A stretch of 64,000 nt of DNA from Bacteroidales bacterium. Lineage in GTDB: Bacteria > Bacteroidota > Bacteroidia > Bacteroidales > GCA-2748055. Positions 17,683 through 63,438 of this stretch are shown piece after piece. The stretch's first letter is position 1; every line of letters begins with the position of its first letter. The DNA lies in assembly GCA_021740585.1 (NCBI GenBank), contig JAIOZM010000008.1, positions 1 through 64,000 on the forward strand, read 5' to 3'. The notes under the pieces were generated by a model, which was not told the DNA's origin, ran no database searches, and saw only the letters and a list, made by a program, of their open reading frames with translations. Made by a program: the position numbers and the translations under genes.

Positions 17683-19623
17683 ATGTTTAAATCGATCTAT
17701 ATATATTCCATTTTACTGGCGGCACTGGTATTTTCCACATTCCAATGCATAGTCGCTGACAAACAGTCTGTAATTTATGCCAAGGATTACGGTTTTGGAG
17801 CATCGAAAGATTGTTCTTCTGCCTCAATTAGAATGATAGAAGCAGCCAGGGAAAAAAACTCGACGAAAATCATTATCGAAAGAGGAACTTACCACTTCTA
17901 CCCGGATAAGGCATTTGAAAAATATTGCAATATCACAAATCATGATGATGGGATTAGGTACACGCCTTTCCCAATTATTGATTTTTCAGATATTGAAATA
18001 GAAGCTGATAGCGCAGAGTTTATTTTTCATGGGATTATCCTTCCCTTTATCATTGACAATTCGGAAAATGTAAAGCTAAGTGGATTTTCCATCGACTGGG
18101 AAGTTCCACTCTACAGTCAGGTAAAGGTAATTGCCACTGATGAGTCAAATCATACCTTTGATATTGAAATTGATCAGGCTTCGCCCTATGGGATTAGAAA
18201 TGGCGAATTGATTTTTTTTAAGGAAGGTTATGAACACAATCTGGAACGTGCCATTTGCTGGAACCCAGAGACTATGGCTGTTGCTTATAATACCTGGGCC
18301 GTAACTCCCTTGACACTAGGTGAGCCGGCAGTGGTAAGATTCCTTGATACTCTGGAATACCAACCATCTAATGGAATCGGGACGTTGCTTCAGGGAAGTT
18401 GGTTCCCACTGCGTGAATTGCAAAATTGTTTGATTGCAGAGGAATTGCAGCCGGGGGTAGTAAGATTATCAGGCCAAAAAAAAGAGCTCCCCAGAAAAGG
18501 CATCATGATTGTTTCAAAAGGTCAGAATGGAATCAATCGCCTTGCTCCGGCTATACATATACGTAATGCCAAAGATGTGGTTATTTCCGAAGTTACTGTG
18601 CATCATGCCGGTGGAATGGGTCTTGTGGCAGAAAGAAGCGAAAACATATTCCTAAATCACTTTAATGTGGCACTAAAAAATGGCAGCGGAAGAATGTTGA
18701 CGACCACTGCGGATGCTACCCATTTTAATAATTGCAGGGGACTTATAAGGATATCTGACTGCCTGTTTGAAAATATGCTTGATGACGCTGCAAATATCCA
18801 TGGAGTTTACGGGATTGTTGAAGATATCATAGACACGCGCACCCTTGGAATATTAATGGGGCACTTTCAACAATTGGGATTCGATTTTGTCGCTCCAGGT
18901 GATCAAATAGGGTTTATCGAGGAAGGTACATCATTTTTCCCATTTGCCAATTCTGAAGTTTCATCAATCCAAAAGATCAACGGTACATATTATATTATTA
19001 AATTCAATGAAGCTTTTGATCCGGCAGTAAAGAAAGGGATTCTTTTGGATAATTTAGATTGGTATCCGGAGGTGGAATTTGTTAATAATATAGTTAGAAA
19101 TAACAGGGCACGGGGATTACTCATAAATACTCGCAAGAAAACCACCTGTGAGGGTAATTATTTCAGCCCTATGGATGAGGCTATTTCATTTCACTTCAAT
19201 TTTGGTGGAGATTGGTACGAATCAGGTTTCTCCGATGAGGTGATCATTCGCAACAACTTCTTTGCCGATTGCAGTTATGCCGGAAGGGAAAGAGCAGTAA
19301 TAAATTTCAGCGGTGATGAATCTCAGGATACATTTATATTTAAAAAAATTGTAATTGAGAATAATAAGTTCAAAACCTTCGACCCATTCTTAATGAATCC
19401 GGTTAAAGTTGATACTCTAATTGTAAGAAATAATAGTATTTCAAAATCAAATACCTATCCCGGATTATTTACTGAAAATCCGGCATTCAGAATCACCCAG
19501 GTGAATTTCTCCCTGTTTTCAGGTAACAAGGTGGAGGATTATGAACCGGGTGATATTATCATTGCCGACAGTATCAGTTTAAAGAAGTTGCATCAGGATA
19601 GTAACAGCTGGAAAAGTCAATGA
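17683..19623 (+). CDS. GH110-type beta-helix alpha-1,3-galactosidase
   Basis: 646 residues with an N-terminal signal sequence (about 1-25; a weak lipobox STFQC ends at C22). The parallel beta-helix carries segments that I recognise from GH110: GTYHFYPDKAFEKYCNITNH at 69-86, TTTADATHF with D344, and MLDDAANIHG with D367-D368. By family knowledge GH110 enzymes are inverting exo-alpha-1,3-galactosidases known from blood-group B antigens and marine galactans. This suggests terminal alpha-1,3-linked galactose in the substrate. Its TGA stop overlaps the next ATG (ATGA at 19620-19623), so it is translationally coupled to SusC. An unclassified relative of GH110 is the main alternative. Confidence 0.8.
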   Translation: MFKSIYIYSILLAALVFSTFQCIVADKQSVIYAKDYGFGASKDCSSASIRMIEAAREKNSTKIIIERGTYHFYPDKAFEKYCNITNHDDGIRYTPFPIIDFSDIEIEADSAEFIFHGIILPFIIDNSENVKLSGFSIDWEVPLYSQVKVIATDESNHTFDIEIDQASPYGIRNGELIFFKEGYEHNLERAICWNPETMAVAYNTWAVTPLTLGEPAVVRFLDTLEYQPSNGIGTLLQGSWFPLRELQNCLIAEELQPGVVRLSGQKKELPRKGIMIVSKGQNGINRLAPAIHIRNAKDVVISEVTVHHAGGMGLVAERSENIFLNHFNVALKNGSGRMLTTTADATHFNNCRGLIRISDCLFENMLDDAANIHGVYGIVEDIIDTRTLGILMGHFQQLGFDFVAPGDQIGFIEEGTSFFPFANSEVSSIQKINGTYYIIKFNEAFDPAVKKGILLDNLDWYPEVEFVNNIVRNNRARGLLINTRKKTTCEGNYFSPMDEAISFHFNFGGDWYESGFSDEVIIRNNFFADCSYAGRERAVINFSGDESQDTFIFKKIVIENNKFKTFDPFLMNPVKVDTLIVRNNSISKSNTYPGLFTENPAFRITQVNFSLFSGNKVEDYEPGDIIIADSISLKKLHQDSNSWKSQ

Positions 19624-22600
19624 TTAATACTTTAATACATATCAGACCTGTTTTTGGGAATTTGTTGAAGAACTTCAAAGTACCCGGATTAATGCACATA
19701 CTGCTGGTAATAATTATGGGTTTTGGTTTCGATAGCGTCCTTTTAGGACAGGTTGAGGTTACAGGTATTGTAATTGATATGGAAACCGGAACAAGCCTGC
19801 CTGGAGTGAATATAGTGGAAAAGGGAACACTAAATGGCAGCGTTACTGATTTGAACGGGAATTATAAAATCACTGTATCAGGAAGCTCATCTGTTCTGGT
19901 ATTCTCTTTTGTTGGTTTTATTTCCCTTGAAGAACCGGTCGGTAACAAATTTGTGATCAACGCCAGCCTAAGTTCTGGTATTTCTCTGGAGGAAGTCCTC
20001 GTTGTGGGCTACGGTACGCAAAAAAAGGAGAGTGTGGTAGGGGCCATCAGCCAGGTTGAGGGTGATGTACTAGTATCTGCAGGAACCAACAATGTGTCTA
20101 CAGCAATCTCTGGAAAACTCTCGGGAGTAGTTACCATTCAAACGGAAGGCAAGCCTGGGGAGGAGGAGCCCAGGATCTATATCCGGGGTGCTGCAACATG
20201 GAATAGTACCAATCCCTTGATTATGGTAGATGGCATCGAAAGATCTAGCTGGTCGGATTTGAATCCAAATGAAATTGAATCTATTTCTGTTCTGAAGGAT
20301 GCTTCTGCCACGGCCGTTTATGGAGCCAAAGGAGGGAACGGAGTGATTCTTATTACCACAAAACGTGGATCCTCAGGAAAACCAGTTTTTAATTTCAGCT
20401 ATACACACACTCTCAAGCAGGTTTCAGATAAATTGACTATGGAGAATGCTTATGAGACCATCACAAGATTTAATACGGCACTTAAAAATGATAACCTATG
20501 GGATCAGCTTTACTCTCAGGATGAAATAGAACATTACCGGTTGCAGGACGAACCTTATCTTTATCCTTCGGTGAACTGGATAGATGAGATGTTCAAAACA
20601 GGGCAATCTACCAGCTCAAATTTAAGCGTTAAAGGAGGAACCAAGATGCTTGATTATTTCGTGTCTCTGGGATATCTTTATGATGGAGATATAATAAACG
20701 TAGAGAAACAGGGTGATTTTGATCCAAGGAATTTTTATAATAGGTACAATCTGAGAACCAACCTCGATTTTAAATTATCCAATTCCACAACACTATCAGC
20801 CAATTTATCCGGAAGTATGCAGATAAGGAACCGACCTTCCGAAATGAACAGGGGCTCGCATTCACTGGTATGGGCAGGGATATACTCATCTGCAGTGAAT
20901 GCTTCTCCTCTATACTATCCTGCATCACTTCTGGAACGCTACCCCGATCCAAATGAACCAGAAGCTGAAGGGATCCGATATGCCTTTTTCAACAACGGGC
21001 ATCTCCACGACAATCCGTATTCAATGTTAAACACTGTTGGATTTGAAAAACAGGAGGAGGGCAATTTGAATACCGACCTGCTGTTGTCACAGGATTTAAG
21101 CTCTTTAATCGATGGACTTTCATTCAAGGCTTCTTTGTCCTACGGATCCAATAGTGAATATCGCAGGATATACGGGGGGGGATCAGGAAATATGATATTG
21201 CCGAGGTACAGGTTAACCGTTTATGAGGATGATTCTTATCTATGGCAAAGGAAACCTGATTACTACGAGGATTTGCCACTTTTTACCTTCAAGGAAGAAT
21301 CTCAGAATTTCTACATCCGTAATCTTTATTATGATAGTCGCTTGAATTATGACAAGGTATTTGCGGGAGATCACTATGTTACTGCAATGGCTATTTTCAG
21401 AAGGAAACAGATAAATATTGTAAGCCAGGAGCCGTTCAGGGAAGAAGCCTGGTCAGGGCGGGTAACCTATGCCTATAAATTAAAATATTTATTTGAAACC
21501 AATCTGGGTTATAACGGTTCGGAATCTTTTGCCCCGGGCAAACGGTTCGGATTTTTCCCTGCCTTTGCCGTCGGCTGGAACATTGCAGAAGAACCATTCT
21601 TCAAAGATAACTTATCTTTTATTGATAGATTCAAATTACGATATTCCTTCGGAGTAGTTGGCGTGGATAATGTGAGTCGTTGGTTGTACTACCAGAGTTA
21701 CTATGAAGGTAGGATTGCAGATACAGATATGATAGTAAATGGCAATGGTCTGGGCGCCTTTGGAGCATGGTATTCCACCAATAAGGGATATTTTGAAGGC
21801 CCAATTGCCAATACGCTGGCACAATGGGAAACTGCTCTGAAACAAAATCTTGGAATCGAAATAGGAATCTCAGGCAGTCTGAATGTGAGTCTCGACCTAT
21901 TTAAAGAAGAACGTGACAATATCCTTCAAACACCCAATACCGTACCTGAAATCGCATCACTCGAATTTAAAGAGTTGAACATCGGGAAAACTAAGAGTCA
22001 TGGCTACGAAATGGAGATATCGTATAAAAACGATCTTAGCTCAAATCTATCTCTGCTTCTTAACAGTAAATTGAGTTTCACAGAAAACCGTGTAATCTTC
22101 AGGGACGATCCTCCGGGATTGCCTGAGCATCAGAGGCAGGAAGGTTTTCCAATAGGCATGCCAAGGACCTATTTATCTGATGGCAGATATGAATCAGTGG
22201 ATGATATCAATAATTATGTATCACCCGGTACTACCTCCTCCGCCATCGGAGCAGAAGGCTATCCCACACTTTATTTCTATGCTATAGGTGATGAAAAGTA
22301 TATCGATTATAACAGCGATGGTATAATCGATGCCAACGATGCAGTGGCAGATCTCTATCCTGCCTATCCCAGATATCATTTATCCTTTTCAGGTACTTTA
22401 AAGTATAAAGCATTTTCGTTCAGAACCCTGCTTACTGCGCAAATCAATAAAACTTCCAGACTGGAAGCCGAATTCATTCTTCCTTTTACAAATACCTTTC
22501 CTGTGTTGTATGAGCATGAAGTGGACTTCTATTCTTCAGATAACCAGTTATCATTTTTCCCCTTGCCTCACACAGGAGTTTATGGTCAATACAATTATCT

Positions 22601-22853
22601 GAACCCAATTTATTCCACTCCGGTATCATCCTTTCTTAGATTAAAGGAAATTGAATTGTCCTATGCTTTAAACTTCAAAAAAACCAGCTCTATTGAGAAG
22701 TTACATCTCTTCGTTAGTGGTAATAATATTCTGACATTTTCACCAAATACATTTTTTGGCGATCCGGAAAAGCCATTGTTAAGGCCGGGATTGGATGGAT
22801 CCTATCCTTTGCTTAGAAGATATAATCTGGGTATAAGACTAAGTATTAAATAG
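19620..22853 (+). CDS. SusC-like TonB-dependent outer-membrane transporter (PUL A, pair 1)
   Basis: 1077 residues. After the N-terminal signal sequence comes a carboxypeptidase-regulatory-like domain (VEVTGIVIDMETGTSLPGV, about 46-125). The typical GYGTQKKESVVGAI, the plug domain (LIMVDGIER, then LKDASATAVYGAKGGNGVI) and a 22-strand-type barrel ending in an aromatic-rich tail follow. It imports oligosaccharides across the outer membrane with its SusD lid. The ATG at 19620 overlaps the preceding stop; a second ATG at 19692 would give a more ordinary signal peptide and may be the real start. The stop is 8 bases before susD. Confidence 0.96.
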   Translation: MINTLIHIRPVFGNLLKNFKVPGLMHILLVIIMGFGFDSVLLGQVEVTGIVIDMETGTSLPGVNIVEKGTLNGSVTDLNGNYKITVSGSSSVLVFSFVGFISLEEPVGNKFVINASLSSGISLEEVLVVGYGTQKKESVVGAISQVEGDVLVSAGTNNVSTAISGKLSGVVTIQTEGKPGEEEPRIYIRGAATWNSTNPLIMVDGIERSSWSDLNPNEIESISVLKDASATAVYGAKGGNGVILITTKRGSSGKPVFNFSYTHTLKQVSDKLTMENAYETITRFNTALKNDNLWDQLYSQDEIEHYRLQDEPYLYPSVNWIDEMFKTGQSTSSNLSVKGGTKMLDYFVSLGYLYDGDIINVEKQGDFDPRNFYNRYNLRTNLDFKLSNSTTLSANLSGSMQIRNRPSEMNRGSHSLVWAGIYSSAVNASPLYYPASLLERYPDPNEPEAEGIRYAFFNNGHLHDNPYSMLNTVGFEKQEEGNLNTDLLLSQDLSSLIDGLSFKASLSYGSNSEYRRIYGGGSGNMILPRYRLTVYEDDSYLWQRKPDYYEDLPLFTFKEESQNFYIRNLYYDSRLNYDKVFAGDHYVTAMAIFRRKQINIVSQEPFREEAWSGRVTYAYKLKYLFETNLGYNGSESFAPGKRFGFFPAFAVGWNIAEEPFFKDNLSFIDRFKLRYSFGVVGVDNVSRWLYYQSYYEGRIADTDMIVNGNGLGAFGAWYSTNKGYFEGPIANTLAQWETALKQNLGIEIGISGSLNVSLDLFKEERDNILQTPNTVPEIASLEFKELNIGKTKSHGYEMEISYKNDLSSNLSLLLNSKLSFTENRVIFRDDPPGLPEHQRQEGFPIGMPRTYLSDGRYESVDDINNYVSPGTTSSAIGAEGYPTLYFYAIGDEKYIDYNSDGIIDANDAVADLYPAYPRYHLSFSGTLKYKAFSFRTLLTAQINKTSRLEAEFILPFTNTFPVLYEHEVDFYSSDNQLSFFPLPHTGVYGQYNYLNPIYSTPVSSFLRLKEIELSYALNFKKTSSIEKLHLFVSGNNILTFSPNTFFGDPEKPLLRPGLDGSYPLLRRYNLGIRLSIK

Positions 22854-22861
22854 TAGAGATT

Positions 22862-24787
22862 ATGAAATTTAAATTCATCATAGTATATATATTCATAGTT
22901 GGAACATTTCTGTTTTCCTGCGAAGATTATCTCGATGTGCCCCGGGAAACGACTGAAATTTTGCACGAAGATATATTCACTTCGTATCTGGAAACTAAAA
23001 ACTATTTGAATCAGGTATATGCTAATATCCATATTTTCGCACATTCTCCTGACCAGAACTATGCGCATGTTGGTTGGTGGTCGATGTACCCAATGGCCGC
23101 CTGTGATGAATATATACACCCGGGGAGCAGGGATGGAGCTCCAAGAATGGGTGAAGAGTGGTGGTTTGATGTGGATCAGTTTAACGAGAGATTTTGTGAA
23201 CCTGATAGGCTGGATCACAATAGATGGCCATTCTGGGTATCCACATGGCAGGCTATTCGTGCAGCCTCTGTTGTGATCAGCAATGCATCCTTGATTACAG
23301 ATGCTACTGACAAGCAGATTAATGAGATCATAGGACAAGCCTATTATGGACGTGCTTTCACCTATTGGTATTTACTTGCTATTCATGGAGGTATGCCCTA
23401 TTTTAAGGAACCCATTGATGCCAATGATAATCCCGACTATACCCGACTATCCTATCATGAAACAGTTAATAATATTATTTCTGACCTCGATTCTGCAGCA
23501 AAGTATCTTCCATCCAGTTGGGAAATTCCGGGAAGTGATCCCTTTGCAACTGAAGATTACGGCAGGTATACTTCAGCAGCAGCAAAAGGACTTAAAGGAA
23601 GAGCCTTACTTTTTGACGCATCCCCATTAAGCTATCATTCGGATGAAATTATGGGATACCCTACAATTAATAACGAACAGGAGCGATGGGAAAAGGCAGC
23701 GGAAGCCTGCTGGGAAGCCATTGAATTTGCGGAAGCTAAGGGATATGAGTTGCTTCCCGGTGATAGCTTGAACTACAAGAAGATATTCAGAGGTGAATGG
23801 GCAACCAGGGAATATCTTCACACTATTACGAATATTAATAGGTCTTCGGGATATAACATCAATCACCGTGAACTAACCAGTATGTTTTTCCCTGGAATAC
23901 TTGTTGGACCCATATACGATAAGAATCGAGGGGTGGATGTTAGTCAGGATATGGTTGATAAATTTGAAGCTGTTGAAACAGATGGAAGCGGAAACATTAT
24001 CAGGGCACTCCCTATAGAAGATGCACGCTCCGAAGGTTTTTACAACGATCAGAACCCTTACATTAACAGGGATCCGCGGTTTCGCTATGATATTATCTAT
24101 CATGGTAGTTTAAAACCCGGATATGGAACAGGTAGAACAGATACGACCTGGAATTTTTCGAGGGAGTCCATAAAACCAGGTTTTTTCAATGATGATTTTG
24201 ATAAAAATTCTCCTTTTCAGAATAATAAATCTGGTTATTATACAAGGAAATACTGGCAAGGAGAATCTGAAGTCCTATATAATATCAATGGACCATGGAC
24301 CTGGATTATTATGAGGATGGCAGAATTGTACCTCAATTATGCTGAAGCCGCAAATCAGGCCTATGGTCCACAGGGAAGAGCGCCAGGTGCAAATATGACG
24401 GCTCTTGAAGCTTTAAATGCTATTCGGAATCGTGTGGGTATGCCAGATGTTGATACCAGGTATACCGGAAGCAAGGAGAGTTTGCACGAAAGGATTCTCA
24501 ATGAAAGAGCAGTTGAATTGTGCTTCGAATTCATTAACAGGTATACTGATGTAAGAAGATGGAGGATTATTGAAACGGAAGAGTATCAGAATACCCCAAA
24601 CATTATTTATATAACAAGTACAAGCGACTTAATTAATTATCCGACAGGTTATGTGTACGAGAAAAGACCCTATATGGTTAATAACGTATTGTATCGAAGG
24701 ACCTTTCAGTTAAAGCATTATTTTCTTCCCCTGAGCAAGGCTGATATTCAAAAAGTTCCTGAATTCAGACAGAATCCGGGTTATTAA
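22862..24787 (+). CDS. SusD/RagB-like surface glycan-binding lipoprotein (PUL A, pair 1)
   Basis: 641 residues, long for the family. A lipoprotein signal ends at C20 (FLFSC), followed by EDYLDVPRE, the usual SusD N-terminus. The TPR-like helices (GQAYYGRAFTYWYLL) and the C-terminal pattern LNERAVELCFEFINRYTDVRRW are typical of RagB/SusD. It should cap the SusC pore on the cell surface and bind the glycan. It lies 8 bases after SusC and 30 bases before the second SusC gene, in one operon. Confidence 0.96.
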   Translation: MKFKFIIVYIFIVGTFLFSCEDYLDVPRETTEILHEDIFTSYLETKNYLNQVYANIHIFAHSPDQNYAHVGWWSMYPMAACDEYIHPGSRDGAPRMGEEWWFDVDQFNERFCEPDRLDHNRWPFWVSTWQAIRAASVVISNASLITDATDKQINEIIGQAYYGRAFTYWYLLAIHGGMPYFKEPIDANDNPDYTRLSYHETVNNIISDLDSAAKYLPSSWEIPGSDPFATEDYGRYTSAAAKGLKGRALLFDASPLSYHSDEIMGYPTINNEQERWEKAAEACWEAIEFAEAKGYELLPGDSLNYKKIFRGEWATREYLHTITNINRSSGYNINHRELTSMFFPGILVGPIYDKNRGVDVSQDMVDKFEAVETDGSGNIIRALPIEDARSEGFYNDQNPYINRDPRFRYDIIYHGSLKPGYGTGRTDTTWNFSRESIKPGFFNDDFDKNSPFQNNKSGYYTRKYWQGESEVLYNINGPWTWIIMRMAELYLNYAEAANQAYGPQGRAPGANMTALEALNAIRNRVGMPDVDTRYTGSKESLHERILNERAVELCFEFINRYTDVRRWRIIETEEYQNTPNIIYITSTSDLINYPTGYVYEKRPYMVNNVLYRRTFQLKHYFLPLSKADIQKVPEFRQNPGY

Positions 24788-24817
24788 TTTAAGTGATTTG
24801 TATAGAAATAATTTAAA

Positions 24818-27637
24818 ATGAACATTGCTACAAGAAATATTAAGATAATCATACTGGCATCTGTATTGATATGGATGGCTAATGAGGGCGTAGCGCAAAC
24901 TGATAAACTCATAATAGAAGACAGCCTCCTCCATAAGACCACTTACCAAATAGACCCATTTGAAGTTCCTTTTTTTAGCTATGATCCAAACAGAACTTCT
25001 GCACCCGTAACCTTGATAGATGGGAAAGTACTTCAGAAGACATCATCTTTTGATTTGAGGGAAAGCCTATTGGGGATGATACCTAATGCCGTATTTATGC
25101 CAGTCTCCAATCGGCCCGGGGCACAAAAAGCAAGTATGCAGATCAGAGCGTCTTCATACCTGATCCTTGTTGATGGAGTCCCCAGACCTATAGACGAAAT
25201 ATCACCATTTGAAGTAGCGTCTGTCAATGTATTGAGAGGATTGTCTTCCACAGCAATGTACGGATCAGATGCCCGCAATGGAATCATCAATTTTCAAACT
25301 AAAAACGGAAATGCTGATAGTAGTTTTATGGATATCAATATAGAATATGGCTTAAGTACTGTCATAGACCGCTACTTGCCTGGATGGCTCAATTCTTTTG
25401 AATATGCAAACCTCTATAATGAAGCAACTATAAACGACGGAGTATCAACTTTTTTTTATAGTGAAGATGCGCTTTCTTACTATCAAAACAGAAGTGCCCA
25501 ACTTAGATATCCAGATGAAGACATGTACAACCAAATATTCAATAAGAGCATGGCTTACAGAAGGGTGAACCTGAGTCATGGCGGCGGAAATGAAAGTGTA
25601 AATTTCTTTCTGAATATGACATACCAAGGAGAAGGTGAAAATCTATATAAGATCAAGTCCCTGACTTCAAATTCTATAGGTATCCGGACGAAGCTTTCTG
25701 TTAAAGTTTCAGATTTTTTAAGTCTTAAGGCAGGTGTATTTGGCAATCTGAATATCTTGAATACTCCCAATTCAGAAGAGCAGATATGGCCGGTACTCAG
25801 CAGTTATCCGTCTAACGCATACCCAATTCTTATCGCTCCTGACACATTCGGTACCAGCCTGAACTACCCAATTAACCCTATAGGCGATCTGTCCAATTAT
25901 TTGTCAACCAGGGAATACGACCTTGTTGGTCGATTTAATACCAGTCTGGATTTCGATTTCTCAAAATGGATATCCGGACTGAAAGCCTCTGCTTTTTTAG
26001 CCTATGATATAAATACCATTTCGTCCTTCGCTGAAAGGCCGGCATTAACCTATGCCCTTTATGAACCCGTTTTCAGTGGAGAAAGTATATACCCCGATAG
26101 CTTGATACAATACGGACTGAATAATCCCGGTGCGGGTATTTCACAAACGAGTACTAACTATCACAACCAATTCTTTAATTATGTAAAAATTGGATATGAA
26201 AAAGACATTGGCAGACACAGGATTATTACAGGAGTGGTAAATAAATTACAAACCCAAAAATCCTATTGGAAGGACGCGAGAAGTCAGGATCTGATAAGCC
26301 AGGATATGAGTTTCAGTATGATGTATACCTTTAATAATCGTTACGGACTCGATTATATAATGTCGTATACTGGTTTGATGAACCTGCCGCAGGACAAGAG
26401 ATTTAAAATGTATCCCACTATTGGTGCCTCCTGGATAATTAGCGAAGAACCCTTTATGGCGAATGTTGCCTTTCTGGAGCTTCTGAAGTTCCGGGCATCA
26501 TACGGAACAATGGGATTCTACAACAGTGAAGATGCTTTTCTTTATAATACATACTGGAGTGAAGGAAGCTGGACTGTTTTTAACAACCGCTTTGAATCAT
26601 CGAGGCAGAATTACAGAGGAACATACCTGATACAGCTGGGCAATGAAAACATTGACAGGGCTACACAGACTGAATTTAATGCCGGAACCGATGCTATTTT
26701 ATTCTCAGGGCGTCTCAGTATTGGAATGGATTATTACGAAATACAGCGTGAAGGTATGATTATGTTGTCACCAATACCATCCATACTAGGGACTCGGAAT
26801 TATTGGGATAATATCGGTGCAGAACAGCACAGAGGCTTTGATCTTTCCTTAGCTTTTAGAAATCTTTCCACTGAAACTTTCTCTTATTCGGTCGGATTAA
26901 ATGCAGGATATAATATATCGGAAGTGTTGGCGTCCAATGAAGTCGATTTTCCCTATGAATGGATGAAAAGAGTGGGCAATCCTGCAGATGCAATTTATGG
27001 ACTGGTTGCAGAGGGATTACTATCTGAAAATGATCTTAATAATGAACCGATCCAGACATTTGGAGAAGTTAAGCAGGGAAATATCAAGTATAAAGACTTG
27101 AATGATGATGGACTGGTGATGAGTGCAATTGATGAAAAGATGATCGGGCATTATGACCCACGCATAAGCTACAGCATACATTTTAATCTTTCATACAAAA
27201 ACTTTGGACTGTTTATTCTCGGATACGGACTTGCCGACTACGATGTGAATATTCGTAACAACCCATACTATTATGCCTATGGAAACAATAAATATTCTGA
27301 GTTTGTATTGAATAACAGTTGGTCACCGGAAAACCCGAATTCTGAAGCCAGACACCCCAGACTAACGGCAGGTACCAATAGTAATGATAACAGGAATTCC
27401 TCCTACTGGCTGGTTGACGGTGGATTTTTTAGCATACAAAAACTGGAGTTTTCATACAAGATACCTGAAACATTTTTGGTTAAAAACGATTTGGCTGACC
27501 TCACTTTCTTCATCAGGGGTAAAAACCTGTATAGCATTTCAAAGGAGAAAGAACTTGATCCTGCAAACAGGAATTTCGGGGTATTAACATATCCTTCGAT
27601 GCGCACATTTGTCCTCGGATTATCCCTTTCATTTTAA
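24818..27637 (+). CDS. SusC-like TonB-dependent transporter lacking the N-terminal regulatory domain (PUL A, pair 2)
   Basis: 939 residues, about 140 shorter than its neighbour. The signal peptide (1-26, ending EGVAQ) is followed by about 35 residues and then directly by the plug domain (APVTLIDGKVLQKT, SYLILVDGVPRP, VLRGLSSTAMYGSDARNGII). The carboxypeptidase-regulatory-like domain and the GYGT motif present in the other two SusC proteins are absent. The barrel and C-terminus are complete, so it is a minimal family member rather than a truncated gene. It pairs with the SusD that follows, starting 10 bases later. How it contacts TonB is unclear without the usual box region. Confidence 0.93.
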   Translation: MNIATRNIKIIILASVLIWMANEGVAQTDKLIIEDSLLHKTTYQIDPFEVPFFSYDPNRTSAPVTLIDGKVLQKTSSFDLRESLLGMIPNAVFMPVSNRPGAQKASMQIRASSYLILVDGVPRPIDEISPFEVASVNVLRGLSSTAMYGSDARNGIINFQTKNGNADSSFMDINIEYGLSTVIDRYLPGWLNSFEYANLYNEATINDGVSTFFYSEDALSYYQNRSAQLRYPDEDMYNQIFNKSMAYRRVNLSHGGGNESVNFFLNMTYQGEGENLYKIKSLTSNSIGIRTKLSVKVSDFLSLKAGVFGNLNILNTPNSEEQIWPVLSSYPSNAYPILIAPDTFGTSLNYPINPIGDLSNYLSTREYDLVGRFNTSLDFDFSKWISGLKASAFLAYDINTISSFAERPALTYALYEPVFSGESIYPDSLIQYGLNNPGAGISQTSTNYHNQFFNYVKIGYEKDIGRHRIITGVVNKLQTQKSYWKDARSQDLISQDMSFSMMYTFNNRYGLDYIMSYTGLMNLPQDKRFKMYPTIGASWIISEEPFMANVAFLELLKFRASYGTMGFYNSEDAFLYNTYWSEGSWTVFNNRFESSRQNYRGTYLIQLGNENIDRATQTEFNAGTDAILFSGRLSIGMDYYEIQREGMIMLSPIPSILGTRNYWDNIGAEQHRGFDLSLAFRNLSTETFSYSVGLNAGYNISEVLASNEVDFPYEWMKRVGNPADAIYGLVAEGLLSENDLNNEPIQTFGEVKQGNIKYKDLNDDGLVMSAIDEKMIGHYDPRISYSIHFNLSYKNFGLFILGYGLADYDVNIRNNPYYYAYGNNKYSEFVLNNSWSPENPNSEARHPRLTAGTNSNDNRNSSYWLVDGGFFSIQKLEFSYKIPETFLVKNDLADLTFFIRGKNLYSISKEKELDPANRNFGVLTYPSMRTFVLGLSLSF

Positions 27638-27647
27638 AAAGAAATTA

Positions 27648-29354
27648 ATGAAGATTATAAGCTGGATATTAATTTTACTTCTTTCCATGATAAGTTTTCA
27701 TAGCTGTACGGATTTATTGGAGCCTCATCCATTTGAGGAAACAGCAGATGAGGAGTATTTATGGAGCACTCCATCCTATGCAGAGGGTGTGCTGATGCAG
27801 GCTTTCCAAGACCTTCATCCCAGTTCGTGGAGAGTTGCCTCCAATGAAATGATGGCTGTCCTTACAGATGATGCTGTGTCCAGCAATCTCTCAAGCCTTC
27901 CGGGAAATTTTGCAATGGGATTACAATCACCCTATTATAATCTGAATTATCTGGATACCTGGGATCTGGATTATGAGAACCTCTACTATATAAACGAATT
28001 TCTTGAGCATATAGGCAGCACAAAATATGACCCGGATTCAATAACCAATCAACGGTTTATTAATAAGTATAGAGGAGACGCCTTTTTCATTAGGGCATGG
28101 TATCACTGGAAATTATTAAAGCGATTCGGAGGCATGTCGGGTGAAGATGTTATGGGGATACCGATTGTAAGGAAAGTTATTACCCTGGAAGAGTCATACG
28201 ACCTGCCCAGAAATACTTATATGGAGACGGTTAACGCCATAATAGAAGATTGCGAATCTGCCTTGAAATATGTTCCGGATCAATATACTGGTGATGATCT
28301 TGTTTCTGGGGTCCAGTATTATGGTGCCCCCACAAAAAGCGTGGTCAAATCCTTGATGGGGATAGTTTATACCTATGCAGCAAGTCCAGCTTACAACCTA
28401 AATAATAATATTGACCTCTGGGATAGTGCAGCTTCAAAACTATCACAAGTAATTATGATGCTTGACGGTGCACCCAATACAGCCGCTCTAATACAAAAAA
28501 ACTTTCATGATCCTGAAAATACACATGTGATTTGGCGCCCCGCTTATCAGGAGTCAAACTATAATAACGAAATCTACAATTACCCACCTTCATTGAGAGG
28601 TAATGGTTATACAAATCCCTCACAGAACCTGGTGGACGCTTTCCCCGATAATTTGGGCTATCCCATTTCGGAGTCAAAAATTTATGATCCTGCAAATCCG
28701 TATCTTAATCGTGATAAACGCTTTTATGAATCCATCGTGTATAATGGATCAATTATAGGATTGGATTCGAGCATCATAGAAACTTTTACAGGAGGCAAAG
28801 ATTCAAGGGCGATATTCAGTGAGTCAGGAACCCGAACCGGTTACTACCTTAAAAAGCTGCTTTCGCTGCATGTAACGCTCTATCCTGAACAAAAAGGCGT
28901 TGAGCCCACATTTTATGTTGCGATTAGCAAAACAGATATTTATCTGCTTTATGCTGAGGCCATGAATGAACTAGCCGGCCCTTATGACAGTCGTTATGGT
29001 CTGTCTGCAAGAAATGCTTTGTTAAAGATCAGGAAGCGGGCAGGGATTGTGTCGGACCAATACCTGCTTTTAACCGCTTCAAAAGGGAAGGAGGCTTTCA
29101 GGGAATTGATCAGGAATGAGCGAAGGGTGGAACTCTGCTTTGAAGACCATAGGTATTGGGATCTTCGAAGATGGGGTGAGATTGAAAAACTAAACAATGA
29201 TGTTTATGGAATAACAATCCTGAAAGAGACAGATTCCACATTTACTTATAATCTTAAATTGATTGAATCCAGGAAATATAAAAGCATATATAACCCATTG
29301 CCTTATGAGGAGGTGTTAAGGATGAAAAATTTAACCCAGAACGAAGGATGGTAA
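27648..29354 (+). CDS. SusD/RagB-like surface lipoprotein (PUL A, pair 2)
   Basis: 568 residues from ATG 27648; a longer frame from a TTG at 27609 would overlap the SusC barrel end and is less likely. The lipoprotein signal ends at C20 (SFHSC), followed by TDLLEPHP. SusD helices are seen in FFIRAWYHWKLLKRFGG and the C-terminal RNERRVELCFEDHRYWDLRRW. It is divergent in sequence from the SusD at 22862, so the two pairs probably bind different glycans or different parts of one. It is in operon with the preceding SusC and the next lipoprotein. Confidence 0.95.
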   Translation: MKIISWILILLLSMISFHSCTDLLEPHPFEETADEEYLWSTPSYAEGVLMQAFQDLHPSSWRVASNEMMAVLTDDAVSSNLSSLPGNFAMGLQSPYYNLNYLDTWDLDYENLYYINEFLEHIGSTKYDPDSITNQRFINKYRGDAFFIRAWYHWKLLKRFGGMSGEDVMGIPIVRKVITLEESYDLPRNTYMETVNAIIEDCESALKYVPDQYTGDDLVSGVQYYGAPTKSVVKSLMGIVYTYAASPAYNLNNNIDLWDSAASKLSQVIMMLDGAPNTAALIQKNFHDPENTHVIWRPAYQESNYNNEIYNYPPSLRGNGYTNPSQNLVDAFPDNLGYPISESKIYDPANPYLNRDKRFYESIVYNGSIIGLDSSIIETFTGGKDSRAIFSESGTRTGYYLKKLLSLHVTLYPEQKGVEPTFYVAISKTDIYLLYAEAMNELAGPYDSRYGLSARNALLKIRKRAGIVSDQYLLLTASKGKEAFRELIRNERRVELCFEDHRYWDLRRWGEIEKLNNDVYGITILKETDSTFTYNLKLIESRKYKSIYNPLPYEEVLRMKNLTQNEGW

Positions 29355-32351: not shown

Positions 32352-32373
32352 GAGAAACCTTTTAAGGTTTCTC
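32352..32373. repeat. Perfect 22-base palindrome, possible operator or leader hairpin
   Basis: GAGAAACCTT, a 2-base TT centre and AAGGTTTCTC form a perfect inverted repeat 36 bases before the beta-helix gene start and about 20 bases after a candidate -7 element. No T-run follows on either strand, so a classic terminator is unlikely. A dimeric regulator site or a stable leader hairpin fits better. Confidence 0.5.
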
Positions 32374-32409: not shown

Positions 32410-34152
32410 ATGCTAAATCCAACCAGAATTCATACAATATTATTGTTCTTGATATTTGGGGCGCGTCTGCTGTCTGACAATCAATTAGCCGGTCAGACAA
32501 TCCATTGGGATGTTACCCGGGTGTTCGGAGTAAGCACAGACAATGCCAGTCCCGGAACTGTTCTTGCCATTGATTCTGCGAGGAAATACTTTGAACTGAA
32601 TCCGTACGACACCATTGTCCTTAACTACCCTGAGGGTATTTTTGAATTTCTTGGGGAGTACCCATCTATCAACTTTGGAGATGCGTTTATCCCGGGAGTA
32701 AGCAGTATGCTGGAATTCAGGGGTGAGGGATATAACAAGACGACTTTTATAACTGTGGATAGGCGGGCGGATGCCATCTGGGGCAAGGATGTCTATAGAG
32801 TAAGTTTCAGCGGAATCCATTTTACACGTGATTATTGCACGGTAACACAAGGAGATGTAGTAAGGGTTTCTCCTGGAATTGTAGTCCTGGAATTACATGA
32901 AGGGTTTCCCACGCCGGATTCACTCATTCAATACGGTCGTCGTAATTCAAGTGGCCTCTATATGAAGAAATATAACGATGACAGGTATGATCCTCATATC
33001 ATTGTTGAAGATAATGATCAGATTCCCTGGGATACTGCAAATACAATTCAGCTTTCGGACAGGATCTGGCAATTTGGACTTCTTAAAGATGATAAAGTTG
33101 CTCCTTATCAGAAAGGAGATATCATAGGCGTAAAATTGAAGCATGGAGGTCAGGCCTACTATTTCTCAGGGGGAGATAATATTGCCTTTGACAGCTGCAA
33201 ATGGACATGGAAAACAAGAGGTGTTTTGAGGGGAGGTATCAGCAATATACGATTTAGCAATTGTTTGATAGATAGAGGCTCTGAAGTGGGAGGAAGAACA
33301 CCATGTCTGGCTTCACCAGGAGGTGGTCCGCAATGCGGACAGCCGAACGATCCCAGGATCACCAATGTAATAATTGAAAACTGCACCATAAAATCCACGG
33401 GAGATGACAATTGCGCTCTTTTTAATGTGGATGGAGGGATCGTTAGAAATTGCTATTTCAGCGATGGTTTTGCACTTGGAACCCGCGTTACCCAGAGCTA
33501 CCAAATTTGTCTGGAGAATAATACATACATCAGATGCTCACCGGGTTGGGTCACTGGTGAAACAGGAGGGGATACAGCCAGCTATTGTTTTGATGTGGAT
33601 TTTGAATCTCCGGATAAACCAACAAATCTTTCGGCATCAGAAATTACACCTAGTTCGTTCACCCTTAGCTGGAGCCCATCCAATGATAATACCGGTATAA
33701 GTCATTATAACATTTTCCTGGCTGACAGAATAATTGGCAATACCAGCGATACCCTCTATAAAATAAACGGATTGAATAGCTCTGTATATTATGTATTCAG
33801 GGTTGTGGCTATTGACTTTGCCGGAAACAGTTCAGAATTTAGTAAGAACTTTGATATTACCCTGCCCGATGAGCCTTTGATGGCAGAAGAATCAGAATGC
33901 TCTTCCATTTCATCTTCCGGAATAAGCATCTATCCCAATCCGTCAACAAATAAGCAAATCTTTGTTGAAGTCAGCCCTGAGCTGCAGGGTGGAAAACTGT
34001 CATTTTTTGATCTCTATGGACGAAACAAACTCGAATTGCCATCTTCCCATAAAAGAAGCTTCATTGATATATCTATGCTTCCAAAGGGTCCCTATATCCT
34101 CGTAGTAGGAAATAATAAAAATATTGGATCAGAATTGCTGATTGTTTATTAA
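32410..34152 (+). CDS. Beta-helix protein of unclassified family with FN3 and T9SS domains
   Basis: 580 residues with a signal peptide (about 1-29). Residues 30-390 form a right-handed beta-helix by pattern (alternating V/I, N and C turns), starting IHWDVTRVFGVST. A conserved block at 295-342 contains PCLASPGGGPQCGQPNDPR and then GDDNCALFNVDG; the GDD recalls the acidic turn of GH28 but the rest does not fit GH28 or GH110. An FN3 domain (about 400-487, from PDKPTNLSASEITPSSFTLS) and a T9SS sorting domain (about 505-580, IYPNPSTNKQIF) follow. Residues 30-350 align without gaps in register with the lipoprotein at 62227-63438. A secreted glycoside hydrolase or lyase is likely, but no activity can be assigned. 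Confidence 0.8.
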   Translation: MLNPTRIHTILLFLIFGARLLSDNQLAGQTIHWDVTRVFGVSTDNASPGTVLAIDSARKYFELNPYDTIVLNYPEGIFEFLGEYPSINFGDAFIPGVSSMLEFRGEGYNKTTFITVDRRADAIWGKDVYRVSFSGIHFTRDYCTVTQGDVVRVSPGIVVLELHEGFPTPDSLIQYGRRNSSGLYMKKYNDDRYDPHIIVEDNDQIPWDTANTIQLSDRIWQFGLLKDDKVAPYQKGDIIGVKLKHGGQAYYFSGGDNIAFDSCKWTWKTRGVLRGGISNIRFSNCLIDRGSEVGGRTPCLASPGGGPQCGQPNDPRITNVIIENCTIKSTGDDNCALFNVDGGIVRNCYFSDGFALGTRVTQSYQICLENNTYIRCSPGWVTGETGGDTASYCFDVDFESPDKPTNLSASEITPSSFTLSWSPSNDNTGISHYNIFLADRIIGNTSDTLYKINGLNSSVYYVFRVVAIDFAGNSSEFSKNFDITLPDEPLMAEESECSSISSSGISIYPNPSTNKQIFVEVSPELQGGKLSFFDLYGRNKLELPSSHKRSFIDISMLPKGPYILVVGNNKNIGSELLIVY

Positions 34153-34200
34153 ACAGATGAATGAAATTATTAATTGAAGCTAAACCAAAAATTCGAACTA

Positions 34201-36090
34201 ATGTTAAGAAAACTATTTTCGATTATTTTTTACTCAGTCATAATGCAGACTTTGTTTTCACAAGCAGATATATATCCTGTTATGCAGGGCGTTGATTTAA
34301 GTCCCGATTTTACCGTGAGAATTGACGATGGCAGTGGGTTCAAAGCTGTCCCTGTTCAGGATATTGTGGATGTTTGTTTTGTCAATTTTGCAATGACAGG
34401 CAGTGTGCAAATAGAGATAACAGTTAATCAGTCAATTGAGAGTTGGAGGATAGGACCCGAAAAGTTTGGGATAATACCGGAAATTAATGATCAGACTATG
34501 AGCTTTGCACTGGATAATCCTGCAAAATTGATAGTCCTGATTAATGAAGGAGCAGGAAACCACACCCTGGGACTTGACGGACTTTGCATTTTGGCAGACA
34601 ATCCGGAGACGGATCCTCCTCAGTTAAGCGATCCTGATGTGGTGAATATTATGGACTACGAGGTTGATCCTTTAGGGAATGTGCTGGCAACATCTTTGAT
34701 TCAACAAGCATTCAATGACCATAATGGACAGGGTAAAATCATATATTTCCCTGCGGGCATCTATAAATCCGGAATGCTGCATATGCGAAGCAATCAGTCT
34801 CTCTATCTGGCTCCTGGGGCTGTATTGATGGGGTCATCAGATTTTAATGACTATCAACAAATAGCGGGTGAAGGGAGTGCAAGTGAAAAGTATCTGATCG
34901 GTTCATGGAAATCCAATAATATTAAGATCTTTGGAAGGGGAATTATTAATGGGAACGGAACGGCTCTTCGTTTGCAAGATCCTGAGGGAGCCGATTTTAA
35001 GACGCATAACATTCAATTTCAGGGTAGTAATAATGTAACCATAGAAGGTATTATCTCACTGGATGCTGGGTCATGGAGCATTGAACCCATCTATTGTGAC
35101 AGTATCCTTATCAGGAATGTTAAAGTGATGAGTGATTTGCGATATTATGAATCAAAACTCAATACTGATGGAATTGATTTGAATAAGTGTAGACATTTGC
35201 TTATTGAAGACTGTCTGATCTGGTCAGGAGATGATGCAATCACGCCTAAACAGGATAATACCTATAACAGTGAATTTCCATTCAGGAATATAAACGATCA
35301 TGTCTATAGAAATATGACAATATTTACACGAAAGGCTGCGATCAAAATCGGTAGTGAAACTTACGGGCCAGGGAAGGAATTCTATGATATGCTGTTCCAG
35401 GATTTCAATATAGTATATGCCGATCGCGCTATGAATATTTGGTCGGAATTTGGTGCAATCATCAATTATATCACTTTTAAAGATTTCAATATTGAAAAAA
35501 TAAGCACAGAATACAAGCAATCGCATATACATTGCTGGATAAACAACGAAGGGAATTCAATTAAAAATATTAAATTCATCAATATTCAAGCGAAAGAACC
35601 GGCACCTCTTGGAAGTTCATTTATTGGTGATAATCTGAACAAAACAATAAATGGTAAACTGGTTCAATATTACAATATTCATTTCTCAAATTATACTATA
35701 GCAGGAGAACCCGTACTCTCGCTGGAGGATTCAAATGCAAAATTTAACTTACATGATGATTCACAAAGCGCTGATCCTTCAGCATTCTCATTTGAATCAG
35801 GTACTGTTTCTACTGATGAAAACCGAATATTTCCCTCTGGGTCGCTATCGGTATATCCAAACCCATTTGACAAAAGTTGTAACATCTCCTTTGAAATTGA
35901 GAGGAAGGATCATGTACAGATTGTTGTAAAGAATCTTGAAGGGCAGATACTTGACGAGATTATAGATACAGAGCTATGTGAAGGAACATATAACGTGGAA
36001 TGGATATGTGGAGCAGGTTTTAGTGGTATTTATCTGGTCTATTTGTTTGTTGGAGGTGCCAGACAAATACACAAAATAGTAAAATTTTGA
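34201..36090 (+). CDS. T9SS-sorted beta-helix glycoside hydrolase, GH28/GH49-like
   Basis: 629 residues from ATG 34201; a TTG nine codons upstream is less likely. Signal peptide about 1-21. An N-terminal beta-sandwich (about 25-135) precedes a right-handed beta-helix (about 155-520) and a T9SS sorting domain (about 553-629, VYPNPFDKSCNISF). This sandwich-plus-helix layout recalls GH49. Acidic motifs are NTDG at 321-324 and GDD at 343-345. The GH28 histidine motif is absent, replaced by TRKAAIKIGSE. Probably an extracellular endo- or exo-glycosidase, substrate unknown. It follows the unclassified beta-helix gene by 48 bases and probably shares its transcript. Confidence 0.82.
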   Translation: MLRKLFSIIFYSVIMQTLFSQADIYPVMQGVDLSPDFTVRIDDGSGFKAVPVQDIVDVCFVNFAMTGSVQIEITVNQSIESWRIGPEKFGIIPEINDQTMSFALDNPAKLIVLINEGAGNHTLGLDGLCILADNPETDPPQLSDPDVVNIMDYEVDPLGNVLATSLIQQAFNDHNGQGKIIYFPAGIYKSGMLHMRSNQSLYLAPGAVLMGSSDFNDYQQIAGEGSASEKYLIGSWKSNNIKIFGRGIINGNGTALRLQDPEGADFKTHNIQFQGSNNVTIEGIISLDAGSWSIEPIYCDSILIRNVKVMSDLRYYESKLNTDGIDLNKCRHLLIEDCLIWSGDDAITPKQDNTYNSEFPFRNINDHVYRNMTIFTRKAAIKIGSETYGPGKEFYDMLFQDFNIVYADRAMNIWSEFGAIINYITFKDFNIEKISTEYKQSHIHCWINNEGNSIKNIKFINIQAKEPAPLGSSFIGDNLNKTINGKLVQYYNIHFSNYTIAGEPVLSLEDSNAKFNLHDDSQSADPSAFSFESGTVSTDENRIFPSGSLSVYPNPFDKSCNISFEIERKDHVQIVVKNLEGQILDEIIDTELCEGTYNVEWICGAGFSGIYLVYLFVGGARQIHKIVKF

Positions 36091-56285: not shown

Positions 56286-56302
56286 ACCAATAAAAGACGA
56301 AT

Positions 56303-57172: not shown

Positions 57173-57177
57173 AAAGC

Positions 57178-58533: not shown

Positions 58534-58566
58534 AGTAGTAAAACAACCTATTCTTATTCAAAATAT

Positions 58567-59049: not shown

Positions 59050-59055
59050 AAATAT

Positions 59056-60725: not shown

Positions 60726-62204
60726 ATGAAAAAAACTTATATGAAAATTGTATTTGCGCTATTGCTAATATTGGCAATAAATAATACCGGAATTTCTCAA
60801 ATATATAATGTAAAGGAATTTGGTGTTATTCCTGATGGAAAAACAATTAATACTGAGGCCATTCAAAAAGCCATCGATGAGTGTGAAAAATTTGGAGGTG
60901 GAAAAGTTATATTTCCGGCAGGGGAATACCTTACCGGACCACTCTTTTTAAAGAGTAATGTGCATATTGAAATCATGGCCGGAGCAAAAATATATGCCAT
61001 TGAAGATATCAATAGTTACCCGGTGATTGATGGACTCTGGGAAGGCATACCCCGAAAGGTATACGCTTCTTTGTTTACAGGTCACAACTTAAATAATATA
61101 TCTATCACAGGCAGAGGGATTATCGACGGAAAGGGTCAAAAATGGTGGGAGCTTGCATTGATCACAAAGGATATGCGTAAAAAGGCCGGCATTGTAGAAA
61201 GGGAACCTGAAAATCCTCCCGGAAGTCCAATAAAATATCGTCGTCCCAGGGTAATCAATCTATATAATTGTAAAAATATCCTGATCCGTGACGTTACCAT
61301 TCTTAATTCACCTTCATGGACGGTTCATCCGGTCTATTGTGAAAATGTAACCATCGACAACATCTCTATTATTCAACCCTATGAATCACCAAATACAGAT
61401 GGAATAAATCCGGAAAGCTGTAAAAATGTAAGGATCAGCGATTGCTTTGTGGATTGCGGAGATGACTGCGTAACTATTAAATCGGGGTATAATGAGATAG
61501 GACGAAAAATAAATATACCCTGTGAGAATATAGTGATTACCAACTGCACCTTTGCGCATGGGCGCAGCGCGGTCGGGATCGGAAGCGAAACATCGGGGGG
61601 CGTTAAAAATGTACTGATCAGTAATTGCGTTTTCCAGAATACCTACCGTGGTCTTCGGATAAAAACAGGACGCGGTCGTGGAAATACAGTGGAAAACATT
61701 AGGGCAACCAACATAATAATGGATAATGTTGGAACAGGAATTTCCATTGATATGTATTATGATGATAAAGATGAGTCGAAAAATCCAGTGGATGAAACCA
61801 CCCCATTCTTTAAAAATATTAGGTACAGCCATATTTCAGGCATAAACATTAAGAAGGCAGGAGAAATATTTGGTTTGCCGGAAGCCCCGGTTGACGGATT
61901 AACTTTTGAAGATGTCGTTTTTTCAGCTGAGACCGGTATGGAAGTAAAGTTTGTTAAAGACCTCAGTTTTCGTGAGGTGGAAATCTATGTTCAGGAAGGA
62001 ACTGCCCTCACCATAAGAGATTCCGATGGGATTTATATAAGGAACTTTTGTTCAAAAAACTACAATACTGAAGTACCAGCTATTGAGGTTGAAAATACGA
62101 GAAAAGCTATTTTCAATAATGAAAATTTTTCAGGGAAACCAGAAGAATTCCTTCGGAAGAAAGGTAATAACAACGAAGTTAGAATAGTAAATTTTAAGAA
62201 ATAA
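60726..62204 (+). CDS. GH28 polygalacturonase-family hydrolase with complete active site
   Basis: 492 residues with a signal peptide (about 1-25, GISQ). The N-terminal IYNVKEFGVIPDGKT and GGGKVIFPAGEYLTGPL are standard GH28. All catalytic motifs are present: NTD at 223-225, GDD at 245-247, H278-G279 and R311-I-K313. By family knowledge the aspartates catalyse inverting hydrolysis of alpha-1,4-linked galacturonides, with Arg and Lys binding the carboxylate. Exo- or endo-action and rhamnogalacturonan versus homogalacturonan preference cannot be told. With the GH78 gene downstream it suggests alternating rhamnose and galacturonic acid. The next gene starts 22 bases later. Confidence 0.96.
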   Translation: MKKTYMKIVFALLLILAINNTGISQIYNVKEFGVIPDGKTINTEAIQKAIDECEKFGGGKVIFPAGEYLTGPLFLKSNVHIEIMAGAKIYAIEDINSYPVIDGLWEGIPRKVYASLFTGHNLNNISITGRGIIDGKGQKWWELALITKDMRKKAGIVEREPENPPGSPIKYRRPRVINLYNCKNILIRDVTILNSPSWTVHPVYCENVTIDNISIIQPYESPNTDGINPESCKNVRISDCFVDCGDDCVTIKSGYNEIGRKINIPCENIVITNCTFAHGRSAVGIGSETSGGVKNVLISNCVFQNTYRGLRIKTGRGRGNTVENIRATNIIMDNVGTGISIDMYYDDKDESKNPVDETTPFFKNIRYSHISGINIKKAGEIFGLPEAPVDGLTFEDVVFSAETGMEVKFVKDLSFREVEIYVQEGTALTIRDSDGIYIRNFCSKNYNTEVPAIEVENTRKAIFNNENFSGKPEEFLRKKGNNNEVRIVNFKK

Positions 62205-62226: not shown

Positions 62227-63438
62227 ATGAGAGTAGCCTATTTATTTGCAATTGTAATTTTCCTTTCTTGTTCCCGTGATGAGAGTAAAGAGAGTAAACA
62301 TATAATTTGGAATGTAGAAACCAAATTCGGAGTATCCAAGGAAAATGCCAAACCAGGTACTGATATGGCTTTGGCCGCTGTTGCAGAGCATTTTAAGAAC
62401 AATACGGGAGACCAGATTGTACTGAAATACAACAGCGGTACGTATCTTTTCCTGGGATCTAATCCTGCAATCGATTTGCCGGGTGATTTTGATCCTGGCC
62501 CAAATGGACGACTAATCATAGAAGGTGAAGGCATGCGAAATACTATATTTATAACTTCAGATGGTTCTACCCCGGATATCGATGGTCAAAATGTTCACAG
62601 GCTAACCTTTCGGGATATCAATTTTGCCCGGAATTACCTTACTGTAACCCAGGGAACAGTCGTTTCCGTAAATCCCGAAGCTGAGGAATTAATTTTAGAG
62701 CTTCACTCTGGATTTCCAACACCTGAAGAGATATGGAGTGTGCCAGGAAAACGATTGTCTCAGGGTAAATACTTAAGAAAATATACAGATGATAAAAGCG
62801 ACCCGAAAGTTATATTGGAAAATAATCCTCAAGTTCATTATAACCCGGAAAAAACTTACCAATTAGACGGTACTATGTGGGTATTTAAAATTGATGGAAA
62901 GTGGAGTGTAGCCAGAGATGAATACAAGTTAGGGGATATTATCGGCGTGAAGTGTAAACATGGAGGCAATACATACCAATTTAATGGGGGTAGCGACATC
63001 GTTTTTGAGGATTGTTTATGGACACATCGTTCCAGAGGAGTATTTCAAAATGGATGCACAAACATTAGGTTTTCACGGTGCAGGATTGAAAGAATAACTA
63101 CTAATAACGGAAGAGTGCCTTGTCTCGCAACTCCCGGTGGTGGTCCGCAAATTGGACAACCCAATCACCCTCGAATTGGTGATGTTGTTATTGAAGATTG
63201 TAATTTTAATTCCTGTGGCGATGATAATATTGCATTGTTCAATGTAGATGGTGCTATTATTCGTAATACATATGCATCTAACTCATTTGCCGCAAATATT
63301 AAGTTATATCGGTGTACTGATATAGTTATTGAAAACACAGAGGTTGAAAATGGATATTATATTATCAGGGAGGATTATGATGGGGATGAATACTTTTTGT
63401 ATGGTCTTCAAAACACAATCGTGAATCCCACTCAATAG
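62227..63438 (+). CDS. Beta-helix lipoprotein of unclassified family (paralogue of 32410-34152)
   Basis: 403 residues. The lipoprotein signal ends at C15 (IFLSC). The mature part from residue 26 (IIWNVETKFGVS) is a right-handed beta-helix and aligns with the protein at 32410 over about 320 residues in the same register; the block PCLATPGGGPQIGQPNHPR and GDDNIALFNVDG falls at 295-342 in both. It lacks the FN3 and T9SS domains of that paralogue, so it should sit in the periplasm or be membrane anchored, while the other is sorted to the surface. Likely a glycan-active enzyme of unknown specificity. It follows the canonical GH28 by 22 bases. Confidence 0.82.
   Translation: MRVAYLFAIVIFLSCSRDESKESKHIIWNVETKFGVSKENAKPGTDMALAAVAEHFKNNTGDQIVLKYNSGTYLFLGSNPAIDLPGDFDPGPNGRLIIEGEGMRNTIFITSDGSTPDIDGQNVHRLTFRDINFARNYLTVTQGTVVSVNPEAEELILELHSGFPTPEEIWSVPGKRLSQGKYLRKYTDDKSDPKVILENNPQVHYNPEKTYQLDGTMWVFKIDGKWSVARDEYKLGDIIGVKCKHGGNTYQFNGGSDIVFEDCLWTHRSRGVFQNGCTNIRFSRCRIERITTNNGRVPCLATPGGGPQIGQPNHPRIGDVVIEDCNFNSCGDDNIALFNVDGAIIRNTYASNSFAANIKLYRCTDIVIENTEVENGYYIIREDYDGDEYFLYGLQNTIVNPTQ

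Follow-up and report, generated by a model that had tools for sequence, protein, structure and literature searches.

An unclassified beta-helix family, very probably related to GH110 glycosidases, in two PULs of a Bacteroidales genome

The described proteins closest to the family reported here are the GH110 alpha-1,3-galactosidases, represented by PdGH110B (7jw4 and 7jwf), PdGH110A (9beh), AgaBb (8yk1) and 8pvs. In PdGH110B, whose residue numbers we checked on the 7jw4 and 7jwf sequences, D344 is the acid, D321 and D345 assist the water and the sugar is held by N85, R265, N348, R451, R453, E480, W486 and E488 (PMC7939477). In GH110, GH28, GH49 and GH87 alike, each of the three Asp is presumed to take part (PMC7939477). 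GH110 shares with our family a right-handed beta-helix, a domain-I-like barrel after the early turns (probable in the family), an Asp pair in register with D344/D345 and an NxxG after that pair, at 11-18% identity. Unlike the family, it also possesses D321, barrel domain II, the RAR and WYES motifs and the C-terminal turns of the galactose -1 pocket, whereas the block GRxPCLAxPGGGPQxGxPNxxR is the family's own. GH28 polygalacturonases (clan GH-N) have the same superfold and likewise an Asp pair after a beta-strand, and they neighbor family members in both PULs described below and in a second genome; however, they lack the barrel insert, and their three-Asp NTDG/GDD/GHG/RIK signature was not seen in the family.

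Two family members occur in the window, the whole 64,000-nucleotide stretch analyzed here (contig JAIOZM010000008.1). The features on which the comparison draws are as follows.

17683..19623, +, true GH110 of the first PUL, used as an internal comparison; both GLAA-B barrel domains and three catalytic Asp
32410..34152, +, T9SS form, 580 aa; signal peptide, beta-helix domain, FN3 and T9SS sorting tail (ORF and Pfam)
32491..33534, +, family domain of the T9SS form, residues ~28-375; GH110-like right-handed beta-helix with domain-I-like barrel insert, as predicted from alignment and model
33295..33435, +, T9SS form residues 296-342, block GRTPCLASPGGGPQCGQPNDPR...GDDNCALFNVDG (alignment, conservation)
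33403-33408, +, T9SS form Asp pair D332/D333
33613..33849, +, fibronectin type III domain (PF00041; Pfam)
33928..34125, +, T9SS C-terminal sorting domain (PF18962/TIGR04183; Pfam, NCBIfam)
34174..36090, +, GH28-like protein immediately 3' of the T9SS form
60726..62204, +, GH28 immediately 5' of the lipoprotein form
62227..63438, +, lipoprotein form, 403 aa, beta-helix domain only (ORF, BLASTP)
62269..62283, +, putative lipidated Cys15 followed by SRDE, resembling a surface lipoprotein export signal (read from sequence; signal definition in PMC5080379)
63112..63252, +, lipoprotein form residues 296-342, GRVPCLATPGGGPQIGQPNHPR...GDDNIALFNVDG (BLASTP, alignment)
63220-63225, +, lipoprotein form Asp pair D332/D333

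Both ORFs were recovered, and BLASTP aligned their products over 370 residues, with 46% of positions identical and 62% positive (E=3e-109), bearing out the in-register match from about residue 30 to 350 described in the first-pass annotation. The two motif blocks reported there also lie at matching positions in both paralogs, with PCLAxPGGGPQxGQPNxPR at residues 298-316 and GDDNxALFNVDG at residues 331-342. According to Pfam, only the 32410 product carries FN3 (residues 402-480, E=7e-12) and a Por_Secre_tail (residues 507-572, E=6e-7). The start of the 62227 product, MRVAYLFAIVIFLSC-SRDE, looks like a lipoprotein signal that ends at Cys15, and the described division into one FN3- and T9SS-bearing copy and one lipoprotein-like copy without these domains thus holds.

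The first PUL contains a PL7, a sulfatase, a GH28, a hybrid two-component regulator, the GH110, two SusCD pairs, the T9SS form and a second GH28. Its GH110, at 17683-19623, carries the ADATHF and LDDAAN motifs. The two SusC/SusD-like pairs follow the GH110 directly in tandem (19620-29354). The second PUL comprises five sulfatases, a GH28 and the lipoprotein form, with a GH78-type rhamnosidase and another GH28-like protein 3' of the latter, the rhamnosidase being assigned by sequence reading. Because it has its own sigma/anti-sigma pair (38587, 39759; read from the sequence, not by profile) and its own SusC/SusD pair (41043/44325; SusD likewise by reading), the two copies belong to different PULs, as first proposed. 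Within this second locus, one sulfatase (53319-55220) unusually carries HEAT repeats (PF13646) fused at its C terminus. The protein encoded at 52492-53274 looks SGNH/GDSL-like by eye (LIGNSISIGY, LNFGLHDL) and had no Pfam match at E<=0.001. Between the sulfatases and the GH28, the interval 55269-60705 encodes a DUF6807 protein, a TIM-barrel epimerase-like protein, two Gfo/Idh/MocA oxidoreductases and DoxX; together they might form an oxidative route for sugars within the PUL. We infer that the target glycan is likely an acidic, partly sulfated polysaccharide; pectin-, ulvan- and alginate-like substrates were weighed, and settling on any one of them would be guesswork.

The surface lipoprotein export signal of Bacteroidetes follows the pattern C-X-K-(D/E)2, or has D/E after a polar residue (PMC5080379). 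C15-S-R-D-E-S fits the pattern of a polar or positive residue with two D/E at +4/+5, R replacing K. Because the lipoprotein's CSRDES start resembles this signal, both family copies may be surface proteins. For the same reason, and because the two PULs differ in gene content, the earlier idea of a surface endo-enzyme and a periplasmic partner acting on one substrate found no support.

Across ~1,100 distinct Bacteroidota genomes searched, the family occurred only in the genome of the window and in a second MAG (G533), which holds one further member on contig JANTGP010000103.1. A pattern scan across GTDB matched this contig alone, and neither pattern scans of genome and viral contigs nor plasmid tblastn revealed additional members; outside Bacteroidota, the rarity is that seen in 8-residue pattern scans only. 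The G533 member is a T9SS form, 71% identical to that of the window, and is followed by a GH28 72% identical to the window's; a PL7 (69%) comes next on the contig, whereas the window's PL7 lies elsewhere in the first PUL. Between the two T9SS orthologs, the family domain has a pN of 0.12 versus a pS of 0.76, indicating strongly purifying selection, and amino acid identity is 79% in the domain versus 55% in the tail. Between the paralogs, conservation peaks at residues 298-323 (76%). Given this selection and the conserved block, the family is real and under constraint and no chance resemblance.

Searches of established families returned little. Apart from FN3 and the T9SS tail in the 32410 product, Pfam (24,736 models) gave only the generic Beta_helix, NCBIfam gave nothing for the family domain and PDB sequences yielded no match, either in direct searches or with the family profile in HMMER. 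Neither protein matched the GLAA-B barrel models PF23763/PF23764 at E<=1, both of which match the window's true GH110, nor Glyco_hydro_28 (PF00295) at E<=1, which the neighboring GH28s match strongly. On inspection, GDD was the sole element of the NTDG/GDD/GHG/RIK signature present, in line with the first-pass view that GH28 motifs do not fit. For GH49, GH87, PL1 and PL6, there was no Pfam or NCBIfam match, and structural matches spanned only part of the model. Judged against Pfam, NCBIfam and PDB, the proposal of an unclassified beta-helix family and candidate new family therefore stands.

A relaxed genome search led to a protein from Bacteroidales genome G459 (L045/L058) at E=0.016, not significant by itself. 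This protein is collinear with the family over ~260 residues, through the helix and the inserted barrel, and hits GH110 crystal structures with E=1.8e-7; PF23763 does not detect this bridging protein. The weak matches L030-L057 were mostly generic repeats (GH28-like, NosD-like), with only L045 and its clade aligning through the insert. Its paralogs L067, L068 and L069 share with the family the TQG entry to the barrel insert, which reads DPxxxTQG in the clade and is followed by H-x-GYP in L058, L067 and L069; helix architecture and DD pair are also as in the family. Unlike the family, to which it shows 14-20% identity, the clade keeps a long C-terminal part and D321 (ADA/ADG in L058, L067 and L068; an aligned Asp in L069).

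Profile-profile comparison of the family with this bridging clade scored 70.9 over 232 columns (probability 96%), against 55.0 for the best of 200 block shuffles. Against 16 GH110-like proteins, the score was 70.3 (best shuffle 61.9). The comparison with GH28 reached 47.9 over 83 columns of repeats, and closer kinship to GH28 was rejected because the match spans repeats only. For the barrel insert by itself, the score against the bridging clade was 41.3, exceeded by one of 150 shuffles (45.1); the 16 GH110-like proteins gave 37.0, above a best shuffle of 33.3, and GH110 proper gave 22.4, within the shuffles. The specific signal is the long collinear match, and the insert alone lies at or marginally above shuffles. 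A tree built on the shared columns places the family at the end of a long branch (1.7 substitutions per site), apart from GH110 proper.

AlphaFold2 models with the three family rows alone reached a pLDDT of 41, which rose to 81 (pTM 0.83) with 16 GH110-like rows added. For the latter model, the top 15 Foldseek matches were all GH110. The comparison of structures suggested in the first-pass annotation points the same way, in a model with GH110 rows in its alignment: VIA-align matched GH110 over 336-344 residues (Z 26.7 at 344 residues), versus ~230 residues for other beta-helix families, AlgE4/AlgE6 and an alginate epimerase/lyase among them (Z 22-24). This model is supportive, not independent, because the GH110-like rows bias it. 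The poor model built without them had 7jwf, a GH110, at rank 1 (E=0.06). On the profile comparison, the intermediate clade and the fold model, the family very probably descends from within the GH110-like superfamily.

Residue by residue, however, the family departs from GH110. In a 19-row alignment, the only invariant columns were G46, G211, D307 and D308 (first-row numbering); the last two correspond to D344/D345 of GH110 and to D332/D333 of the family, so that the acid/base pair is present and aligned in all rows. D321, kept in the true GH110s and bridging proteins aligned here, has no counterpart in the three members, where the ADATHF position holds Q, Q and N or a gap; the only conserved acid between R296 and D332 is the strand residue Glu323. 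Of the -1/+1 subsite, N85, R265, R451, R453, E480, W486 and E488 are missing. In the family, RAR is replaced by FAA/FAL and KHR by KHG, and the WYES turn is absent; allowing for a three-residue insertion, the N of FNVDG may be the equivalent of N348 in two of the three members. Barrel domain II is absent, the helix turns resuming directly after the Asp pair; barrel domain I is collinear in the alignment and in the VIA-align match, in a model that used GH110 rows and with an isolated insert score near shuffles. Around the Asp pair, the family's own invariants are R296, Q308, N313, R316 and D341, and an invariant family-specific block, GRxPCLAxPGGGPQxGxPNxxR, sits at the active-site turn. Between the paralogs, nothing is better conserved than this block with the Asp pair, as one would expect of an active site. 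The first-pass statement that the motifs do not fit GH110 was therefore correct at the level of residues and missed the kinship evident in collinear alignment, Asp pair and model. By these residues, the family is not a GH110 and plausibly keeps part of its machinery; it is best read as a new branch, at family level, within the GH110/clan GH-N-like superfamily, and probably acts on glycans together with GH28.

Our leading explanation, in which we place about even confidence, is a rare unclassified family derived from GH110-like beta-helix glycosidases and acting as a surface glycan hydrolase beside GH28. Its ancestor would have been a GH110-like right-handed beta-helix glycosidase with clan GH-N-like machinery. 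The scaffold would then have been shortened, keeping the inserted barrel that resembles GH110 domain I and losing domain II together with the C-terminal turns from which GH110 forms its galactose pocket, while the active-site turn was rebuilt around the retained D332/D333. Acid/base catalysis by this pair would most likely cleave a glycosidic linkage within an acidic, partly sulfated polysaccharide, with D341 (NVDG) possibly replacing the lost third Asp, and cleavage would take place at the cell surface next to the GH28 enzyme. The narrower claim of a new GH family in the clan GH-N superfamily, working with the Asp pair and the rebuilt PGGGPQ-QPN loop (perhaps with D341) and no third Asp on a sulfated or uronate-rich polysaccharide to which no known enzyme has yet been tied, is offered tentatively. 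GH110 and its clan relatives have one three-Asp inverting machinery in common, and a slim branch with two of the three Asp under strong purifying selection would illustrate either a re-engineering of this machinery or the passage from enzyme to binding protein. The pairing with GH28 at every locus seen would offer a route into a poorly known acidic glycan pathway.

With D321 lacking a counterpart and all three Asp presumed to take part, activity could be lost. The family might then be a non-catalytic glycan-binding protein from a GH110-like enzyme, its cleft re-tuned for binding and the protein working at the surface with SusD and surface glycan-binding proteins, an alternative that we regard as a serious rival at well below even confidence. 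Besides the third Asp, nearly all GH110 subsite residues are gone, surface binding proteins typically combine such a compact domain with FN3 and T9SS modules or with a lipid anchor, and the first-PUL gene sits within a SusCD-DUF1735 stretch. The xylan-binding CBM89 sets a precedent for a right-handed beta-helix as a pure binding module (PMC8810776). Compared by description only, it resembles the family in fold, in belonging to a Bacteroidota carbohydrate system and in having no intact known catalytic triad, but it is a 14-turn helix fused to GH10 for which no GH110-like Asp pair is reported. Against binding alone, none of the three members has lost the Asp pair, which lies in the most conserved part of the protein, and the neighbors conserved with the family are hydrolases plus a lyase.

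We consider it improbable that the family is a polysaccharide lyase or a C5-epimerase acting on a uronate polymer. The fold is common to AlgE epimerases and PL6 lyases, AlgE4/AlgE6 are structural neighbors of the model, and PL7 and GH28 nearby suggest a uronate substrate, PL7 being in the same locus both here and in G533; yet the structural matches are much shorter than those to GH110, no lyase or epimerase family in Pfam or NCBIfam matched the sequence, and the YG-DPH-type epimerase motif was not seen. Equally hard to credit is a generic repeat resemblance with no special GH110 tie: single generic beta-helix proteins do score as high on the C-terminal repeats as single GH110-like proteins, and identity to any GH110-like protein is just 11-20%, but the full-length collinear profile score exceeds all shuffles, the TQG...GYP barrel entry is shared, the Asp pair is invariant and in register, and fold confidence rises greatly with GH110-like rows.

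Upstream of the T9SS form, TAATTTTG at 32323-32330 matches the Bacteroidetes promoter element TAnnTTTG, and a palindrome, GAGAAACC-TTTTAA-GGTTTCTC, lies at ~32352-32373. The four GH110-like beta-helix paralogs of the one Bacteroidales genome G459 (L058, L067, L068 and L069) show ADA(L/F)HS or similar where GH110 has ADATHF. In L058, the only one of them scanned, Pfam gave the generic Beta_helix only, and the clade may constitute a second unclassified family.
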